Source: a virus. Taken from it: a stretch of 64,000 bases of DNA. Each line of letters begins with the position of its first letter. Positions within the stretch are counted from its first letter, which is position 1. Shown here piece by piece: positions 23,380 to 47,128 of the stretch. Below the pieces are notes generated by a model, which was given only the letters and a program-made list of their open reading frames with translations, was not told where the DNA came from and ran no database searches. The position numbers and the translations under genes are program-made. The stretch lies in the IMG/VR virus record IMGVR_UViG_3300033153_006744, positions 26,495 to 90,494 of that record; one strand, 5' to 3'.

Positions 23380-24042
23380 TTATTGTTTATCTTTGTGGTT
23401 GTTTAGCCTTATAAATGACAACACAACTAATAATTGCAACTCACTAAACTTAGAAAAAAACATCTTATTGTCATTGTATTTACTTAATCCGAACTTTCCG
23501 ATAACATTAAACTTTATACTTTTGCCACTTATTATTTCAGTTTTTGAGAACTTAAAGGCAATCATTTCCTTAGCTGTTTCATGAATTTCAAGCATATCAT
23601 CAAGATTTATTTTCACAAGCCCTTTGTCAGTGCCAATTGTTATTGAATCTTTATTATAATTAACCTTGCAAAAAAAGAAGAAATGTTTTTTATACGAGAA
23701 ATTAACACCAACCATAAATGGGCTTTTCTCCTTTTTGATTAAATCAAAGAGAACACTCCTGTTTTTAGTTGTTATAAACTCCTTTTCTGTAGCAAAAAAG
23801 TTAACTTGCCTTAATGTTTGGTTTTCTTTTAAGTTTTTGGTTTTAAACAAAGAAGAGCAAGTTAAGCATAATGTTTTTGAGTTATTCTTAAAAATATAGA
23901 AGTCATTAAAGTTAGCTGATACCGTATTCTTTATTAAGTATCCATTACTTACTTCGCAATTACACAATGCGCAGGTTCCTTTTTCTTTTCCATCTTCGTT
24001 TTTAATTATATGTTTATCTAGTATGTTAACTATATCTTTCAT
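23380..24042 (-). CDS. Csf1-like zinc-binding protein of a type IV CRISPR-Cas-like module
   Basis: A 220-residue protein proposed to be a Csf1 homologue, the Cas8-like subunit that defines type IV CRISPR-Cas. Seen: two CxxC pairs near the N-terminus (C24-C27 and C59-C62), the second as CLTCSSLF; then KKEKSPFMVGVNFSYKKH followed by beta strands and VKINLDDMLEI. Csf1 proteins characteristically combine an N-terminal four-Cys zinc site with a downstream 'PF......s..KH' strand. The gene overlaps the csf3-like gene by 17 bp and ends a four-gene operon. Similarity is weak enough that a structural comparison is needed, but context raises the odds. Alternative: an unrelated zinc-ribbon protein. Confidence 0.55.
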   Translation of the reverse strand: MKDIVNILDKHIIKNEDGKEKGTCALCNCEVSNGYLIKNTVSANFNDFYIFKNNSKTLCLTCSSLFKTKNLKENQTLRQVNFFATEKEFITTKNRSVLFDLIKKEKSPFMVGVNFSYKKHFFFFCKVNYNKDSITIGTDKGLVKINLDDMLEIHETAKEMIAFKFSKTEIISGKSIKFNVIGKFGLSKYNDNKMFFSKFSELQLLVVLSFIRLNNHKDKQ

Positions 24043-24724
24043 TGTTCTCCTTTAGTTGTTTTGGGATTAATATATTTTCTTGATATTCACCTAGCCAATA
24101 TGGCGCACGATAAGACCCATAATCATTTACATAAGAGAAATCTCTATCTTTAAATATGTTATCAGCCATCACCTTAAGTGGCAGTGGTCTAAATAATAAA
24201 TATTTTTGCTCTTCTTTTTCGGCAATCGTAATCTCAAAACTTGAAAACCAACCGAACCCAGCCTTAACTTTTTTCCCAATCCCAACAATATAATCTACTA
24301 GTTCTTTTATCTTGTTTTTATCTCCTATAAAATAAAAAACTATATTATCAACAGAATTTATAACAATAGGCATGTCATAGCTTTTATAATATCCACTACC
24401 TATATTTACCTTTCTTTTGGCTTTTCCAAAATAACTAAGAAAATCATGTCTTGAATTCCATCGTTTCCGCCACTTGTCAATTGATATTTCTTTTTTCTCT
24501 ATTATTCCATAAGAACAAAGATAAAAACCTAATTTGTGTTTTTTTATGGGGATTAATTTTTCTATATTCTTATTTATTTCGGAACCATTCGAGGTTTTAA
24601 TGTCGGTGTTTTTTCTAAAATATTTCTGATAAACTGCATAAGAAATAATGCTGTCAAAAATAGGTATATCTGTATAAGCAATTGGAGATGACATTTTAAA
24701 TTTTATTTTATAAGTTATATCCAT
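24026..24724 (-). CDS. Csf3-like (Cas5-type RAMP) protein
   Basis: A 232-residue protein with a RAMP layout. The N-terminal strand and helix is SSPIAYTDIPIFDSIISYAV, matching the 'P...D.PI.LD..L.Y' start of Csf3. Next come a basic stretch (KRKVNIGSGYYKSYDMPIV), a ferredoxin-like segment (FYFIGDKNKIKELVDYI), and a glycine-rich loop GIGKKVKAGFGWF at residues 148-160, the hallmark of Cas5/Cas6-type RAMPs. It continues with FEITIAE and a LLFRPLPLK segment. Csf3 would bind the 5' handle of the guide RNA. The gene overlaps ibrB-like by 10 bp and csf1-like by 17 bp. Another RAMP subfamily is possible. Confidence 0.6.
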   Translation of the reverse strand: MDITYKIKFKMSSPIAYTDIPIFDSIISYAVYQKYFRKNTDIKTSNGSEINKNIEKLIPIKKHKLGFYLCSYGIIEKKEISIDKWRKRWNSRHDFLSYFGKAKRKVNIGSGYYKSYDMPIVINSVDNIVFYFIGDKNKIKELVDYIVGIGKKVKAGFGWFSSFEITIAEKEEQKYLLFRPLPLKVMADNIFKDRDFSYVNDYGSYRAPYWLGEYQENILIPKQLKENNERYS

Positions 24725-25338
24725 GATTTTGAGAACTCCTTATTTCTAAACAAGTTTCCGAGTCCAGTAAATTGCTTTAACCTTAAGACCTCGTCCTTAT
24801 CCATCCCTAGTTGTTCACTTATCTTCTTGTCACTCCAGCCCATAAAATAAAGCTCTTCAACTATTTCACTCATAGATTGTATGCCATGCGTTCCTCTCGC
24901 CCTATTGTGTCTAATTGTACTAGCCATTCTTTCCTTTAAACTTTTTTCTATAACCACTAGTGGCAAATAGCCCTTGGTTCGTGTTTTTATGTCATCATAT
25001 TCCTTTCCAATTCTATTCCTGTGAAATCCATCAACAACAACATACTTATCTTGCTCTTTATCATAAAAAGATACAATTGGTTGAGTATATCCATCTTCTT
25101 TTATTGACCTATATAATAATTGCATTTCTGGAGGTGCAACCTTGTTTGGGTTGTAATTATTAGCCTTAACCCTATCTGCTTTTATCCACAAAACATTGCT
25201 GACTGGCTCTTCTTTAAGTGGGTTAATTTCGTTTAGTTTAGAATAAATGTCATTTAATAATTCTATCTTGTCATCTTGTTTTCTTATCTTCTTTATGTTG
25301 AAAATAAGTTCGTCAACCTTATCTAATAATTCTTTCAT
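24715..25338 (-). CDS. ibrB: IbrB-like ParB-domain protein
   Basis: A 207-residue ParB N-terminal-domain protein. Residues 100-107 give VVDGFHRN, the ParB/Srx nucleotide-binding motif. It is followed by HNRARGTHG (residues 144-152), the diagnostic IbrB element, and a helix-turn-helix (DKKISEQLGMDKDEVLRLKQ, residues 170-189). IbrB was described with IbrA in E. coli as a regulator pair of immunoglobulin-binding proteins. ParB-like domains can bind CTP and DNA; activity here is unknown. Its ATG overlaps the ibrA-like stop (ATGA), the conserved pairing. Confidence 0.8.
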   Translation of the reverse strand: MKELLDKVDELIFNIKKIRKQDDKIELLNDIYSKLNEINPLKEEPVSNVLWIKADRVKANNYNPNKVAPPEMQLLYRSIKEDGYTQPIVSFYDKEQDKYVVVDGFHRNRIGKEYDDIKTRTKGYLPLVVIEKSLKERMASTIRHNRARGTHGIQSMSEIVEELYFMGWSDKKISEQLGMDKDEVLRLKQFTGLGNLFRNKEFSKSWI

Positions 25339-26552
25339 TCTCCTAGCTCCTCTTTCATTTTATAATATTTTTCGTATTGATTTTTAGTTTGACCAAACGA
25401 CAAACTTTTACAGATTTTATCGTTCTTTAATATAACTTTAGCAAGCCTCCGCCATGATGGAGCCTTTTTAGAGCTTTCAAGTTTTTTGTCTGCTTCATCT
25501 GGAATTCCATCTGGATAACCATTTTTAGACCACCACCGAATAAATATCTTGAATTTTTGCCCATACCACTCTGCTTCAAATTTTGGAAGAGTTGCCATTA
25601 GAAAATTAACATAACTTTCCCATGTGTGATTTTTTGGCAATATTACCTTGTTGTTTCCTAATAAAAAGCTTTTGCAATATATGTTGCCAAAATTAGCTCC
25701 AGACACTCTATCAACAATTCTAGACCACGTTTCAGGTTCACACTGTCTAAATAAATTAAGACCTTTTCTTTGGTCATCTCCGTATGGCTGACATATTCTT
25801 GCTTCATGTATTGATAACCCCTGCATGTACATGAAATCATAAATTTTATTGTATGTATAGCTCTCGTTTCCAACAGAAACCCATATATCTTTAGTCTTCC
25901 AGTCATAAATAGGGTAAAAATTAAAAACATTCTCAACAATTTGAGTTGTCCACATTTTATCTTTATATATTTTTTTCTTCGTATTTTTAATGGTTCTATA
26001 TCTATTTAAACTTTCATCTGATCTTATTCCAACTCCACAGGCAATTTTTTCTTTTCCAACTTTGAACCACTCTGCAAACCTAACAACTAATTCTTCAAAC
26101 TCTATTCCTCTATGAAACCATTTCTCCCATTCTTTGGGCATGTTATTTTCGTTTATAACATATTTTGAATTAGGCATCGGCCTAACCCATTTATCTTCAT
26201 TTTCTTTATCCCAACAAATCCATTGTGGCTGGTAAACACTTACTGCATTTCTTAAATTTAAAGGCAAGCATAGCCAATAACCATCAATATCTTTATTGTT
26301 GAAAATTTCTTCAACATGCTTTATTGTAGACTTATACTGAGCCTCTAAGTCAATGAAAAGTATTTTTATTGGTATTTTGTTCTTTTTTTTCGCAATTTCA
26401 AGTGCTAGTTGAACCATTACACTAGAGTCTTTTCCGCCAGAAAAAGAAAAGCAAATCTCATCTTTGTCAAAGTTGTCAAAAATAAAATTAAGTCTTTCTA
26501 TTGCCTTGTCCCAAACATTTACTTTTGAATATGTTTTTGATTCACTGTTCAT
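25335..26552 (-). CDS. ibrA: IbrA-like PP-loop (PAPS reductase superfamily) protein
   Basis: A 405-residue IbrA-type protein of the DUF3440 kind. An ATP pyrophosphatase P-loop, CFSFSGGKDSSVMVQLAL, is at residues 34-51 with SGGKDS at 38-43, followed by ILFIDLEAQYKSTI. FYPIYDWKTKDIW and EARICQPYGDDQRKGLNLFR are the further conserved blocks of this family. The C-terminal WKYK-like IFIRWWSKNGYPDGIPDEAD is also typical. The domain activates substrates by adenylation or handles PAPS; the biological substrate is not known. It is the first gene after an early-type promoter, with AAGGAGG. Confidence 0.83.
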   Translation of the reverse strand: MNSESKTYSKVNVWDKAIERLNFIFDNFDKDEICFSFSGGKDSSVMVQLALEIAKKKNKIPIKILFIDLEAQYKSTIKHVEEIFNNKDIDGYWLCLPLNLRNAVSVYQPQWICWDKENEDKWVRPMPNSKYVINENNMPKEWEKWFHRGIEFEELVVRFAEWFKVGKEKIACGVGIRSDESLNRYRTIKNTKKKIYKDKMWTTQIVENVFNFYPIYDWKTKDIWVSVGNESYTYNKIYDFMYMQGLSIHEARICQPYGDDQRKGLNLFRQCEPETWSRIVDRVSGANFGNIYCKSFLLGNNKVILPKNHTWESYVNFLMATLPKFEAEWYGQKFKIFIRWWSKNGYPDGIPDEADKKLESSKKAPSWRRLAKVILKNDKICKSLSFGQTKNQYEKYYKMKEELGE

Positions 26553-26573
26553 TCTACCTCCTTAGTTACTTAC

Positions 26574-26602
26574 ACTGTAACACATTTTAAACTAAATGTC
26601 AA
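26574..26602 (-). promoter_or_regulatory. Early-type promoter of ibrA-ibrB-csf3-csf1
   Basis: Minus strand: -35 TTGACA (26597-26602), 17-bp spacer, -10 TACAGT (26574-26579), in the 50-bp gap before the ibrA-like ATG at 26552. It shares the spacer pattern (TTTAGTTTAAAATGTG) of the other early promoters but lacks the leader hairpin. Confidence 0.65.
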
Positions 26603-27361
26603 CTATGTATATGCTTTTATTTCTGGATGAAAACTTAACATGAGATTGTATTGTTTTTTATAGTAATACTTTAACCATGAAAACTGACCTATTGTTGCAG
26701 CCGTTGGATCTACAAACCAAGATATTCTTATTTTAGCTGGATCATCTGTAAATCTTGTTTTATTATATGCCGGGTGTAGCAATTTATCTAATTTTCTACT
26801 GTAAATATATGCAAAAACATCATCCCCAGTTAAATCACAAATCGGATAAAACTGATATATCTTATTTTTCTTAGAATAAAATAATTTACCCATATGTTTT
26901 ATTAAATTTTCCCTTCTTTTGCTTTCTTCTTTTCTTATCCCAATCAAGGCAATTTTATAATCATTGTCCTGTTGGAAGTTTCTAATGGGCGTCATCATTG
27001 CCTTTTCAAACGCATAATTCTTGCACCCAGCATCATAAAAAGCCTTCTTTTTTGCATATTCATCTAGTATGTCAATTGGGGATTTTACTACATTTATTGT
27101 CTTATTGTGGTGTTTTTCCGCTAGTTTTATAATTCCGTAGCTCTCGGGTAGCTCATACCAAGAATCATGAAACATTATGTCTAAATTAGGGTTTGCCTCT
27201 AATGCAATATCTAGCATTACTAAACTATCCTTGCCAGTGCTATATGAAATAGAACCCTTTGTATTTCTTGTTTCTTTTTCAATAGAGCTCTTAACCAGCT
27301 CTATTTTTCCCTTAAACTCGTCTAGCTCTGCATACAACAAATAATATTCTTTATTTTTCAT
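26603..27361 (-). CDS. CysH-like phosphoadenosine phosphosulfate reductase-fold protein
   Basis: A 252-residue PP-loop protein from the ATG at 27361 (GGAG about 10 bases upstream; a TTG at 27376 is an alternative). The P-loop is ISYSTGKDSLVMLDIALEA (STGKDS at residues 41-46). Next come IMFHDSWYELPESYG, IALIGIRKEESKRRENL and YQFYPICDLTGDDVFAYI, all standard CysH-fold blocks. The KRT-ECGLH catalytic tail of assimilatory CysH is not present, so sulfate assimilation is unlikely. CysH-like genes are regular companions of type IV-B CRISPR loci. It overlaps the csf2-like gene by 11 bp, which binds the two genes into one unit. Confidence 0.82.
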   Translation of the reverse strand: MKNKEYYLLYAELDEFKGKIELVKSSIEKETRNTKGSISYSTGKDSLVMLDIALEANPNLDIMFHDSWYELPESYGIIKLAEKHHNKTINVVKSPIDILDEYAKKKAFYDAGCKNYAFEKAMMTPIRNFQQDNDYKIALIGIRKEESKRRENLIKHMGKLFYSKKNKIYQFYPICDLTGDDVFAYIYSRKLDKLLHPAYNKTRFTDDPAKIRISWFVDPTAATIGQFSWLKYYYKKQYNLMLSFHPEIKAYT

Positions 27362-28550
27362 TTTCTTTAACTCCAATAAAAGCTAGGATATCTTTTTTGT
27401 TTTTCTCTATATGCCTTAAGTATAAATTATTTGCATTTTCAGGAATTGTCAACTCTGACAAATCTATTTCAGATGAACCAGTTGCAAACATTCCGCCAAT
27501 AAACGGATTTTCTTTAAAAAGAATTAATGCATGCCAGAAGGCCGAAACAGATAATTCATTAAAATCCATCATTCTAAAGCCATGATTGAACTGAGTTCCT
27601 TTTGCAAAAACTTCATATTCATACTTCATATGAGTTGGGTTTTCATCTTTTTTGTCTTTTATCGCCTTTATTGATATATTCTTTTCATCTTTAGAGCTAT
27701 CTTTTCTGCTTTGAAAAATCATGTCCAAGTAAGACCAGAATGAGTTAATTCCTGTTTTCAACTCCACGCATTTAGGATATGCAAAACCAACAGATAATTG
27801 ACCTTCTATTGTCATGTTGCCTATTGCACTGCCAAAAACACCAAGCATTGGAATGCTATCTATTAGCTTTTCTCTTTTTTCTAAGTCCTCATATAGGGTA
27901 GACTCGGTCAAGGCTCCGCCAGTAAACAAAATATGATATAATTGTTTATCTATTTTTTTACATCCAACTCTTTTTAAGAAATCATACATCGCTAATCTTC
28001 TTAAGACGCCCCTAATGCTATTTCCAGATATACAAGGAATCAGCTCAAATGTTTTATTGTATGTTTTAAGTTTCTCTTTTTTTACATCTAATTTATGGTC
28101 TTTATCCTTGCTCTTCATTCTTAATAAAACAGTTATAGTGTGAGCCTCATCTCTAACTTTTGACAAAAACTCAACATCTGTTATTTGTTGTAGATAATTG
28201 AATGTTTTATCTTTTAAATCAGGCATTCTAACACCACATAAATCTGCAAATACTTCAAAAAATTGGAATCTATTTGAAGATGTTGCAGACCTTTTAATTT
28301 TTGAATATAGCTCATCCCATATTCCCATTAATCTCTTTCCTTTTATTTTGCTAAAGTCTATCTTAGAGTATATACTATAACAAACATCAACAATGATATT
28401 TCTAACATCATCATCTGAAAACGAGGTTAAAAAGTTCTCGTTTTTAACCATTATTTTCTGTCTCCTAAGCAGCTTTGTTGTTCCGTCTGTCTTATCGGAA
28501 CCCGTGTGAAGGAATGTTGTTCCAGTGAAATTGTAGTCAACTTTAATCAT
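27351..28550 (-). CDS. Csf2-like (Cas7-type RAMP) backbone protein
   Basis: A 399-residue protein with a Cas7/Csf2 signature. FELIPCISGNSIRGVLRRLA (residues 168-187) is the classic RAMP 'ISGN.lRG.lRR' motif. LGVFGSAIGNMTIEGQLSVG (236-255) matches the conserved 'lFG...G...i.g.l.vg' stretch. EVFAKGTQFNHGF (313-325) and ENPFIGGMFATGSSEIDL (347-364) are the 'GT.F' and 'iGG..a.G.G.v.l' blocks that follow. The length suits Csf2 with one insertion (about residues 285-305, Lys/Asp-rich). Such subunits polymerise along guide RNA. It is directly followed by a cysH-like gene, as in type IV-B. Alternative: another Cas7-family RAMP. Confidence 0.68.
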   Translation of the reverse strand: MIKVDYNFTGTTFLHTGSDKTDGTTKLLRRQKIMVKNENFLTSFSDDDVRNIIVDVCYSIYSKIDFSKIKGKRLMGIWDELYSKIKRSATSSNRFQFFEVFADLCGVRMPDLKDKTFNYLQQITDVEFLSKVRDEAHTITVLLRMKSKDKDHKLDVKKEKLKTYNKTFELIPCISGNSIRGVLRRLAMYDFLKRVGCKKIDKQLYHILFTGGALTESTLYEDLEKREKLIDSIPMLGVFGSAIGNMTIEGQLSVGFAYPKCVELKTGINSFWSYLDMIFQSRKDSSKDEKNISIKAIKDKKDENPTHMKYEYEVFAKGTQFNHGFRMMDFNELSVSAFWHALILFKENPFIGGMFATGSSEIDLSELTIPENANNLYLRHIEKNKKDILAFIGVKENEK

Positions 28551-37761: not shown

Positions 37762-38457
37762 TTAATAACCTGTTTGCTTGTTTTGGATATGGAGTGCATT
37801 TAAATAGTCAAAAATAAGATGCATATTTCTGTCACTTAGTTCTTTTTCTTTTCTTACATCTTGAGCTAATGTTGTTATGCTTTCCGCTAATGATTCAGGT
37901 ACTTGCTTCATGCCTAAGCTATCGAATAATTCTTTTATTGATACCCAACCTTCGTCATGTGGGTATTTTTTGCCTTGCTCTCTTGATGCTTCATTGTCTT
38001 CAATTTGGTTGGCGTCATTTGAATATTGGTCAATGCTGAAGCCATCTATTAATGAATCTAAATTATTAAGTTGTTCTGAGCTATAGGGCATTGTTTCCAG
38101 TAACTCATCTGTATCAAACTCTTTCTGTAACTCACTTATTATATCTACTAACTTGTTTTTATCACTTTTAAACCTAGTCTCGTTGGTCTCAATGGCTATT
38201 CTTTTGGCTTGGTTTTCCGTAATATTGCCTAAATTATAGCACATAACTTTATCATAGTTTAGTTCATTAAGAACATCTAACCTATGGTTGCCATTAACCA
38301 TTTCATAGGAATCTTCTTCTAACTCCCTAACTATGACACTTTCAATGAATCCATTTCTAATGATGTTTGATTTAAGCTTTGACCTTAATTCTTCATTGTC
38401 TTCTTTATAATTCCATTCAGCTTTAATTATTTTATTCAACTCAATTTCTTTAAACAT
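37762..38457 (-). CDS. ParB-domain protein (paralogue of the ParB-methyltransferase)
   Basis: A 231-residue protein from the ATG at 38457 (AGAGGTTAAA site). The N-terminal 125 residues match the upstream ParB-methyltransferase throughout: WNYKEDNEEL, VIVRELEEDSYEMVNGNHRL, MCYNLGNITENQAKRIAIET and NETRF. The motif VNGNHRLD (about residues 47-54) is the ParB/Srx loop. The C-terminal 100 residues are different, helical, with no enzyme motif. It lies 1 bp after the methyltransferase gene and probably arose by duplication of the 5' part. Role in DNA binding or regulation is inferred. Confidence 0.75.
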   Translation of the reverse strand: MFKEIELNKIIKAEWNYKEDNEELRSKLKSNIIRNGFIESVIVRELEEDSYEMVNGNHRLDVLNELNYDKVMCYNLGNITENQAKRIAIETNETRFKSDKNKLVDIISELQKEFDTDELLETMPYSSEQLNNLDSLIDGFSIDQYSNDANQIEDNEASREQGKKYPHDEGWVSIKELFDSLGMKQVPESLAESITTLAQDVRKEKELSDRNMHLIFDYLNALHIQNKQTGY

Positions 38458-38458
38458 T

Positions 38459-39859
38459 TTAACCTCTAGTTTTATCAAATTCTTCTTTTATATCTTTAAA
38501 GTCTATTGTTTTGCTGTTTCTTATTAATTTAACATCATTAAAATTAGCTTTATGTTTAACATATCTATCTACAATTATATCGCAATATTTTTCATCCAAC
38601 TCCATTCCATAGCAAACTCTTTTTAATTGTTCACTTGCAATAATCGTTGTTCCACTACCGCAAAAAGGCTCAACAACTATATCTTTTTCTTTTGTAAACA
38701 TTGCAATAAATTCAGCAGGTAATTGAACTGGAAAAACCGCTGGATGGTCAGTTTTATTGCTTTTCTCCACTCCAATGTTAAAAACTGTTCCTTGAAAACC
38801 ATATTTATTTATATTGTGGCACACTGTATCTTCTATATGTCCTTTTTTGGCTCTTTTTACTGTTTTCATCTTCGCCGTCTCATAATATGAGTTTATTTTA
38901 GTGCGATTTTTTTCTTTGATTTCTTTGCCAAAAATAAAAATCCATTCATGCCATACGGGGATAAAGGCGGTTTCGTTGCCAATAGAACCAGAGTTATTTC
39001 TATTCCATATGCTCCAACTTAAAAACTTTAAATTTTCCTGTTTTGCTTTGTCAATATAAGTGTTCCAATAAGGGAATATTTCATTATTTTTTCTTTGCAA
39101 TCCAAGATTAATAATTTGATAGTTTACATATTCTCTGTATGTTTTAATAAAATTAACAATATTATCAACTTTTAAATCCTTTTCTCCATTATATTCTCTC
39201 ATGTCACTATAAGGAGGGCTAGTAAACAACATTTTAGATGTTTCGCCGTTCATCAGCTTGTTAACGTCTTCTTGACTTGTACTGCTACCACATAACAATC
39301 TATGTTTTCCCAATATCCATATATCCCCTTTTTTAGTATATGCAGCCTTCTTAATGTTTTCAGTAAAATCATCTTGCTCAACTTGCTTATCCTCTAAAAC
39401 ATCTAAGCCAACATTTTCTTCACTTTCATAATCTTCTAATTCTAAATTAAAATCTAAATCATCATCAGCAAAATCTAAAACATCATCAACGATTGTATAG
39501 CTGAGGTCTTCTAGTCCAAAATTATTTGATATATCATTGATTAAATCCGTTAATTTTTCCTCATTAACGCCAAACTTTGTTTCATTTGTTTCTATTGCAA
39601 TTCTTTTAGCTTGGGCTAATGATATGTTACCCAAATCATAACACATTGTATGTTTAACCTTTAACTCTCTTAAAATATCTAGCCTATGATTTCCATTTAC
39701 CACTTCATATTTATTTTTACTTATTTGCCTTACAATTATGTTTTCAATAATGCCATTCTTTTTTATATTGTTTTTTAATTTTTGGCTTAATCTTTTGTTT
39801 TCTTCTTTATAATTCCAATCCGCCTTGATTAATTGATTTATCTTTATGTTTTTAAACAT
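38459..39859 (-). CDS. ParB-DNA methyltransferase fusion (beta-class)
   Basis: A 466-residue two-domain protein. Residues 1-120 are a ParB-like domain with VVNGNHRLD (53-61) and NISLAQAKRIAIETNETKF. Residues 178-440 are an adenine/cytosine-specific DNA methyltransferase of beta order, with motif IV first: LFTSPPYSD (211-219), the substrate-binding DHPAVFP (371-377) and motif I EPFCGSGTT (397-405). The SPPY form of motif IV is compatible with N4-cytosine or N6-adenine methylation. ParB-MTase fusions are common in phages. It overlaps the Cas6-like gene's end by 8 bp and shares its promoter. Its target sequence is unknown. Confidence 0.85.
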   Translation of the reverse strand: MFKNIKINQLIKADWNYKEENKRLSQKLKNNIKKNGIIENIIVRQISKNKYEVVNGNHRLDILRELKVKHTMCYDLGNISLAQAKRIAIETNETKFGVNEEKLTDLINDISNNFGLEDLSYTIVDDVLDFADDDLDFNLELEDYESEENVGLDVLEDKQVEQDDFTENIKKAAYTKKGDIWILGKHRLLCGSSTSQEDVNKLMNGETSKMLFTSPPYSDMREYNGEKDLKVDNIVNFIKTYREYVNYQIINLGLQRKNNEIFPYWNTYIDKAKQENLKFLSWSIWNRNNSGSIGNETAFIPVWHEWIFIFGKEIKEKNRTKINSYYETAKMKTVKRAKKGHIEDTVCHNINKYGFQGTVFNIGVEKSNKTDHPAVFPVQLPAEFIAMFTKEKDIVVEPFCGSGTTIIASEQLKRVCYGMELDEKYCDIIVDRYVKHKANFNDVKLIRNSKTIDFKDIKEEFDKTRG

Positions 39860-40430
39860 TGCCTACTCCTTTTAAAAACCCATAACCAGAACCATTTTTA
39901 TGACCTACACCTAAATATAATATAGGCTCATTATTCGTTTCTTCTTTAAACTTCAAGATAACTTTAAACGAATCAACTAAATTGCCCTTAAAGAAAACTT
40001 CTTCATTGCCATATTCAATCACAATGTCATCAACGTTATTTTTATCTATAATATTTTTATCTATATATTCAAAAACAAAAGAGTTTATATTGTTAACTTT
40101 TGATGTAATTATTCCACAAGGTTCGGTTTTGAACACTTTGCTTTTATCTAGCTCAAAAAACATCATGTTTGCCAAAGCTATTCCTATTCCATCGTAATTC
40201 CTAAACTTCAAAGAGTTCAATTCGTTCATTCTTTTAAGAAACGCATCAGATAAGCTTCTAAAGTAAACCGTAATAAAGCTTTTCCCGTCTTTAGTTAAGA
40301 ACCCTTCAGGATTGATTGCAAACTTATCTCTTGCTTGCAGGTGTAGCGTTAATGCTGTTATCATTTTTGCTTTTTGTTCGGTAATTTCTGTATCAAAAAG
40401 GAAGTCTATCTTGCCATTAATAAAATTCAT
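39852..40430 (-). CDS. Cas6-like RAMP protein
   Basis: A 192-residue protein whose C-terminus carries the Cas6/RAMP hallmark. EEVFFKGNLVDSFKVILKF (residues 143-161) is followed by LYLGVGHKNGSGYGFLKGVG (171-190), the glycine-rich loop that ends Cas6 enzymes ('kG.....f.v.......l...GlG.k.s.GfG.l'). The N-terminus has beta-type KIDFLFDTEITEQKAKMI, and a His at residue 30 (LHLQAR) may be the catalytic residue of such ribonucleases. It is shorter than most Cas6 proteins. The gene starts an operon with the ParB-methyltransferase, 11 kb away from the csf genes. Alternative: another ferredoxin-like protein. Confidence 0.5.
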   Translation of the reverse strand: MNFINGKIDFLFDTEITEQKAKMITALTLHLQARDKFAINPEGFLTKDGKSFITVYFRSLSDAFLKRMNELNSLKFRNYDGIGIALANMMFFELDKSKVFKTEPCGIITSKVNNINSFVFEYIDKNIIDKNNVDDIVIEYGNEEVFFKGNLVDSFKVILKFKEETNNEPILYLGVGHKNGSGYGFLKGVGNV

Positions 40431-40455
40431 GTCAACTCCACATAGTTAATTTCTA

Positions 40456-40506
40456 TAGGTTATTGCAACCTAGAATTAGTATGCCAGTAAATATGTATTA
40501 TGTCAA
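40456..40506 (-). promoter_or_regulatory. Promoter of the Cas6-like/ParB-methyltransferase operon
   Basis: Minus strand: consensus -35 TTGACA (40501-40506), 17-bp spacer ending in TGG, -10 CATACT (40478-40483). A hairpin TAGGTT-GCAAT-AACCTA (40456-40472) begins at the predicted start near 40471. Thus it combines the early -35 with the extended -10 class and a leader hairpin of different sequence. Confidence 0.65.
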
Positions 40507-46169: not shown

Positions 46170-46745
46170 ATGTCTTTAACTTATCAAGAAATTAACAAAA
46201 ATTATGACTTACAAGATTTATCAGGCGAAGAATGGAGGGATATCAAGGGTTTCGAGGGGTTTTACCAGGCAAGTAACTTGGGTAGAATAAAGGGGTTAGA
46301 CAGAATAGTGTCACAAGGGATTAGAGTAAATGGAAGGATAATGAAGCCTAGAATAAGTCGAGCTGGCTACCCAATGATCGGGTTGCGCAAAAATGGATTA
46401 CATAAATCCATAGAAGTACACACGCTGATAGCTAAAGCATTTATTGAAAAACACCAAAGCAAGAAGAAACTAATAGTTAATCATAAAAATGGGATTAAGA
46501 TAGATAATAGATTAGGAAATTTAGAGTGGAGCACCTATTCAATGAACCTAAAACATGCTTACGATAATAACCTAAGAGGGTCTAAAGATAAGCACCCCAA
46601 CGCTAAACTAAGCAAAACACAGGTTGAATTCATAAGGGCAAATAAAGGTAAACTTACTTATTCATATTTAGCAAAATTATTTAATGTGTCATTTGAGACT
46701 ATATCATGTGTGATGAGAAATAAATATTACAATTATGACAAATAG
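46170..46745 (+). CDS. HNH homing endonuclease (NUMOD4-HNH)
   Basis: The only plus-strand gene. 191 residues: an N-terminal NUMOD4 motif (GEEWRDIKGFEGFYQASNLG with the following RIKGLDR), an HNH core (VHTLIAKAF and VNHKNGIKIDNRLGNLEW, residues 83-120), and a C-terminal helix-turn-helix (LTYSYLAKLFNVSFETISCV). This is the domain order of free-standing phage homing endonucleases. It cuts a specific site and copies itself by recombination. It lies between the terminase block and an early operon with its own promoter and palindromic leader, and looks like a selfish insertion. Confidence 0.88.
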   Translation: MSLTYQEINKNYDLQDLSGEEWRDIKGFEGFYQASNLGRIKGLDRIVSQGIRVNGRIMKPRISRAGYPMIGLRKNGLHKSIEVHTLIAKAFIEKHQSKKKLIVNHKNGIKIDNRLGNLEWSTYSMNLKHAYDNNLRGSKDKHPNAKLSKTQVEFIRANKGKLTYSYLAKLFNVSFETISCVMRNKYYNYDK

Positions 46746-46919: not shown

Positions 46920-46990
46920 ATAGCACCTTCGTTTATAGTTTGAGAACATGTTACACTTTTAGTATACGTGTTAAAAAATAAAAATAAAGG

Positions 46991-47113
46991 TAATAACGGA
47001 TACTTGGGATAAAGTTTATTGTTTTGGAATGCCTTTTGTTATACATTCTAAGTGTTTATGTGAGTAAAAAAAAGTGCAAAAAAGATTAAATTATTTCCAT
47101 GTGTCCGTTATTA
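46991..47113. repeat. Inverted repeat pair flanking the gap after the terminase gene
   Basis: The 13-base arms TAATAACGGATAC (46991-47003) and GTGTCCGTTATTA (47101-47113) are inverted repeats with a single wobble-type mismatch, separated by 97 bases without a gene. The arms could be paired binding sites or ends of a small non-coding element; a plain terminator is unlikely because the loop is long and no T-run follows. Confidence 0.4.
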
Positions 47114-47128
47114 TTCAGTTATTTTTAA

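Follow-up and report, generated by a model that had tools for sequence, protein, structure and literature searches.

The locus analysed here raises the question of whether a phage with a type IV-B csf module but no array also keeps a Cas6-like guide-processing enzyme, encoded away from the csf genes. According to published descriptions, type IV-B systems have no enzyme for crRNA processing (PMC8175902, PMC7937560) and no array, and the complex, when purified, had assembled on RNA of mixed, non-CRISPR origin (PMC7937560, PMC8175902). In the 2025 classification, type IV still comprises three subtypes and IV-B loci are depicted without arrays (PMC12669027), and virus-borne IV-B modules are already known (PMC10848311). 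In a stretch of 64,000 nucleotides (the window, taken from a virus record of 90,494 bp, of which it covers bases 26495-90494), a sequence-only reading had proposed that one gene encodes a stand-alone Cas6-like RNase, kept in one operon with a DNA methyltransferase and under a promoter separate from that of the csf genes.

The candidate gene, its operon and the csf module

The proposed gene was confirmed as real. It is a minus-strand ORF of 192 codons, in an open frame that cannot exceed 197 codons, which starts with ATG behind a GGAG ribosome-binding site and has a gene-like codon-position GC of 37/25/29% (Table 1). Its protein product ends in ...LGVGHKNGSGYGFLKGVGNV. The minus strand holds nearly all genes of the window, in which there are no tRNA genes. 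The stop end of the candidate overlaps the start of the ParB-methyltransferase gene by 8 nt, in agreement with the claim of a shared operon, and since the two are translated together, the candidate would be made apart from the csf operon. The linkage to the methyltransferase may nevertheless be a matter of operon convenience. As to the claimed separate promoter, the nearest promoter-like match (40506-40478), which agrees with the consensus at 10 of 12 positions, ends 47 bases 5' of the candidate's ATG, but such matches are about as frequent in the region as expected by chance (62 found, against a shuffle mean of 59.9). From the sequence, a promoter of the candidate's own is therefore only possible.

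Relatives of the candidate were not found by peptide patterns in viral and genome contigs, a weak search that needs near-exact 8-mers, or by tblastn against phages. The terminase, used to reach sister phages, had no relative among viral contigs and was matched in phages only at about 23% identity. Wide occurrence of the gene in phages without a csf module, named beforehand as evidence against a Cas6 role, was thus not encountered in the collections searched.

The csf module, whose presence was upheld by PADLOC, occupies 23380-28550, 11 kb downstream of the candidate and among morphogenesis genes. Its type IV-B gene set is complete, comprising csf1, csf2, csf3 and Cas11, the last as the N-terminal part of csf2. 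CysH-like genes lie at 26603-27376 and 25335-26552. The operon contains neither a Cas6 nor a dinG gene, all of its genes being otherwise assigned and none being DinG-like, and no CRISPR array was detected by a repeat search of the entire 90.5-kb record, as had been claimed. Also present within the operon are PAPS-reductase/DUF3440 and ParB-like genes (24715-26552), presumably an IbrA/IbrB-like pair; a comparable ParB gene (L046:9391-9894) follows the csf operon of another record, L046. There it is accompanied by a methyltransferase-like ORF (PF01555, just under the cut-off), so that the neighbourhood of csf, ParB and methyltransferase genes recurs. As in the IV-B modules of Mycobacterium sp. 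JS623 (PMC7937560) and the Fuxivirus of Bathyarchaeia (PMC10848311), csf1, cas11, csf2, csf3 and a cysH-like gene are present and adaptation genes are absent; the window differs from published IV-B modules in the fusion of Cas11 to Csf2 and in the ParB and second PAPS-reductase genes inside the operon.

No Rfam family was matched in the window and no candidate repeat RNA was found near the candidate gene. Elsewhere, the intergenic stretch at 46950-47128, bounded by the terminase gene and a plus-strand HNH/NUMOD4 gene (46170-46745), was predicted to form a strong plus-strand RNA fold (z -4.0, MFE -41.3), itself without an Rfam match.

Table 1. Features of the window and of csf operons in three further virus records (positions are those of the window unless a record is named)
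Feature	Position	Strand	Basis or remarks
csf1 (Cas8-like)	23380..24042	-	PADLOC Csf1_0_IV 8.9e-27
csf3 (Cas5-like)	24026..24724	-	PADLOC Csf3_0_IV 9.2e-38
ParB-like protein within csf operon	24715..25338	-	phrog_2159 1e-73; 51% identical to the ParB adjoining the L046 csf operon
PAPS-reductase + DUF3440 protein	25335..26552	-	PF11922 1.1e-37, PF01507 1.6e-13; phrog_2302
CysH-like protein of csf module	26603..27376	-	PF01507 2.4e-18; 25% identity with L002 CysH (csf operon)
csf2 (Cas7), Cas11-like N-terminal part	27351..28550	-	PADLOC Csf2_0_IV 1.3e-49, Cas11_1_IV 9.6e-8
Second ParB-like protein	37762..38478	-	PF02195 6.6e-6; phrog_723 7.9e-21; overlaps methyltransferase gene
ParB-domain + N6/N4 DNA methyltransferase	38459..39859	-	PF01555 1.9e-26, PF02195 2.7e-7; phrog_498 2.6e-72
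Candidate gene, putative Cas6-like RAMP	39852..40430	-	192 aa ORF; 100% match to G000:C1:66349-66924
C-terminal glycine-rich loop LGVGHKNGSGYGF	39876..39914	-	residues 173-185, by sequence
'kG.....f.v' strand KGNLVDSFKV	39960..39989	-	residues 148-157; alone not discriminating
Predicted helix with N...K spacing of Cas6 second domain (weak)	40050..40088	-	residues 115-127; N126 invariant in alignment A6
FKT, aligned with the FKT.(S/T)P linker joining two Cas6 domains (weak)	40125..40133	-	residues 100-102; alignments A4, A6
His30, possible catalytic His	40341..40343	-	sole histidine outside loop; in predicted first helix
GGAG ribosome-binding site of candidate	40436..40439	-	5 nt before ATG, by sequence
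Promoter-like TTGACA-17-CATACT, TG ahead of -10	40478..40506	-	consensus match 10/12
L002 operon, 153.5-kb record	L002:8683-12559		cas6 - csf1 - Cas11/csf2 - cysH - csf3
L042/L019 operon, 87.3-kb record	L042:5583-9679		csf1 - cas11 - csf2 - csf3 - cas6 - cysH, single run
L049 operon, 82.2-kb record	L049:5376-9505		gene order as in L042/L019; its Cas6 72% identical

Similarity to Cas6 within and beyond the glycine loop

Inspection of the candidate's sequence showed that the C-terminal glycine loop is retained: it stands 7 residues from the C-terminus, in position and sequence as in the Cas6 consensus, and follows the 'kG.....f.v' string (K148-G149-NLVDS-F155-K-V157), as had been pointed out. 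Shuffling the candidate 200,000 times produced the pattern G[ILVMFA]G-x5-G[FYLMW]G no more than 20 residues from the end in only 11 cases, and none of 564 other ORFs (150-450 aa) has it there. When all IMG/VR contigs were scanned with an exact DNA pattern for GhGxK[NTSI]GxG[FY]G, 21 stretches were returned, and in only two of these did an ORF of at least 150 aa carry the loop no more than 25 residues before its stop. Both were Cas6 C-termini, one belonging to a canonical Cas6 in a full csf operon (L019) and the other to a csf1-Cas6 fusion (L023). The 41 stretches returned by a further DNA-pattern scan, which was anchored on the loop histidine, included none in a suitable ORF. As judged from these sequence comparisons, the loop is very specific to Cas6 C-termini and not chance-like.

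The remainder of the protein gave a different picture. None of the Cas6 family models of Pfam, NCBIfam and PADLOC matched the candidate, and PF01881 and PF10040 had no match in the whole record at E<=10. The only Pfam match was to RAMPs (PF03787; E=0.14, below the cut-off), confined to the last ~20 residues, and it was rejected as support for Cas6 when two of seven unrelated proteins onto which the tail had been grafted also matched the model (E=0.009 and 0.15). With hhalign, the candidate was aligned to Cas6 at 58% over residues 170-189 only, a level that none of 200 native decoys reached. As whole-protein support this value was also rejected, 137 of 200 decoys with the candidate tail grafted on scoring as high, and the candidate without its tail scored like ordinary decoys. 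Against a profile built from nine Cas6 sequences, it scored 11.7 bits, falling to -1.5 bits when the loop was masked. As the similarity disappears without the loop and is reproduced by tail grafts, a stretch of some 20 residues is all that underlies the Cas6 call. The claimed resemblance to Cas6 thus held for a rare, Cas6-specific loop, but it did not extend to a family-model match or to significant profile similarity outside residues 170-189.

Traces of a wider resemblance were seen. Local alignment (BLOSUM62) of residues 110-166 with the Cas6 of G002 ranked 5/207 against decoys and 14/500 against shuffles, although, as one of seven comparisons, it fails after correction. The order in which an FKT..P linker and an N...K helix occur is the right one for Cas6, and this fingerprint, defined post hoc, was shared by 2 of 564 decoys. 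The alignment of His30 to any known catalytic position is not trustworthy; catalytic residues are known to vary among Cas6 proteins (PMC3150331, PMC8175902). The fold of the candidate could not be read from AlphaFold models because pLDDT was about 35 in both runs (34.8 alone, 35.6 with three Cas6 rows); only a low-confidence model shows a b-a-b-b-a order of elements, in its N-terminal half. Matches to PDB entries (cohesin, enoyl reductase) were dismissed as chance.

Compared with type I-B/III Cas6 (TIGR01877, PF01881, PADLOC Cas6b), the candidate, known from sequence alone, has in common a loop of the form GhGxKxxxGhG a few residues from the end, a possible linker and helix signature and an early histidine, but it lacks a family-model match, measures 192 aa against 230-270 aa for the Cas6 proteins used for comparison, and is encoded in a methyltransferase operon on a record without an array. 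The stretch with the second strand of the first Cas6 domain seems to be missing. On the Cas6-like reading, the two-domain layout would probably be retained. The pairing of a guide-processing RAMP with Csf proteins would be as in type IV-A (Csf5/Cas6; PMC8175902), which, however, has dinG and an array of its own, and the candidate has no detectable similarity to type IV Cas6 models. Taken together, the candidate is fairly likely to be a RAMP of some kind, whereas its being Cas6-like is an evenly balanced call.

Virus csf operons with a canonical Cas6

Further virus records were reached through relatives of csf2 and of the loop. Three of them (153.5, 87.3 and 82.2 kb) have a type IV-B csf operon that includes a canonical Cas6 and a CysH-like gene, so that the joint occurrence of csf and Cas6 genes, which the sequence-only reading had suggested looking for in other phages, was indeed observed. 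Its statement that type IV-B normally lacks Cas6 agrees with published descriptions and with the operon of the window, but not with these three operons. The Cas6 of the largest record scored 83 bits with TIGR01877 (cut-off 58.65) and 65 bits with PF01881, and its Cas11/csf2 is 48% identical to the csf2 of the window; that of the 87.3-kb record matched PADLOC Cas6b at 1.1e-72. No CRISPR array was seen in these two records (L002 and L042/L019), which were the two examined. The window resembles these operons in being part of a virus record with a csf module, a Cas6-type protein and no array seen; in the three records, however, Cas6 is canonical and lies inside the csf operon, whereas the putative one of the window is 11 kb off. 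As related virus modules have a real Cas6, the idea of a Cas6 role for the candidate is plausible. No report of virus-borne IV-B with Cas6 was found in the open-access literature, and priority is not claimed.

Several observations were made on these and other records. The canonical Cas6 at L002:8683-9375, which scores above the TIGR01877 cut-off, is devoid of histidine in the N-terminal half; its catalysis may depend on other residues, or the protein may bind without cutting. Much of the first 26 kb of the same 153.5-kb record (L005 and L006) is filled by genes for many proteins of 24-aa repeats, the units of which are 72 nt long with MORN-like YxNGxxxG wording. In a 35.8-kb record (L045), a single ORF at 1700-2482 encodes Csf1 (residues 13-183) followed in frame by the C-terminus of a Cas6 (186-258), and the record contains no csf2; this looks like a deletion scar within a csf1...cas6 operon, or a real fusion. 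An unannotated Cas6 ORF was also present in two 'Listeria phage' records (OR848150.1, L053, and OR846720.1), one of which is marked unverified; these are possibly host DNA.

Competing explanations and proposed role

The explanation preferred here, held at about even strength, is that the candidate is a Cas6-like RAMP that has become shorter and diverged strongly, and that guide RNA for the Csf complex of this phage, whose IV-B module lacks an array, is supplied or capped by it. Its main competitor, which we consider the less probable of the two, is that the candidate is no RAMP but a phage protein peculiar to its lineage and belonging to the methyltransferase operon, such as an accessory or regulatory factor, whose Cas6-like tail arose by chance or convergence. 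Translational coupling to the methyltransferase gene at 11 kb from csf would fit such a protein, as would a similarity to Cas6 that stops at 20 residues and the absence of homologues from all collections searched; the great rarity of the C-terminal pattern in unrelated ORFs, its occurrence near the stop of long IMG/VR ORFs in Cas6 proteins, and the presence of a csf module in this very phage all argue otherwise.

It is unlikely that the candidate is instead a RAMP of the Cas7/Cas5 group (Cmr6-, Csm- or Csf3-like), serving as a structural subunit of an RNA-bound complex without cutting RNA. The sole Pfam match is to the general RAMPs model PF03787 and not to the two Cas6 models, and RAMPs of the Cas7 group also have a glycine loop, with no further RRM domain behind it (PMC3150331). 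Against this, only the loop accounts for that match, the Cas6 tails recovered in this analysis share the loop wording GxGxKNGxGYG, and csf2 and csf3 are already present in the phage. Very improbable is a nuclease-inactive, Cas6-like anti-CRISPR decoy that binds host CRISPR repeats or crRNAs independently of csf: phage counter-defence at the Cas6 step is known, RNA anti-CRISPRs binding Cas6f (PMC10651486), and the gene is separate from csf, but His30 could be catalytic.

If the candidate is a diverged Cas6-like RAMP, it would bind a repeat-like hairpin in host pre-crRNA or in a phage transcript and might also cut it, via His30, and the processed RNA would be passed to the complex of Csf1, Cas11-Csf2 and Csf3. 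Nucleic acid of the host or of rivals might then be the target of the guide-loaded complex, which would not cut it. In the sister modules, the viral Cas6 would cut host pre-crRNA or a viral hairpin RNA, the product guiding the Csf complex. A broader account, put forward tentatively and standing on the doubtful side, is that some viruses pair array-less IV-B csf genes with a Cas6 of their own, cutting guides from host CRISPR transcripts and loading them into the viral complex, and that the Cas6 of the present phage was relocated to the methyltransferase operon, having become smaller and too divergent to be recognised.

The virus IV-B operons that bear a Cas6 touch on the question of which RNA cargo type IV-B complexes carry, and operons that combine a canonical Cas6 with the lack of an array would make the hypothesis of guide theft directly testable. 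Should the candidate also be a Cas6, the pairing of Cas6 with csf would reach a phage in which operon context would miss it.
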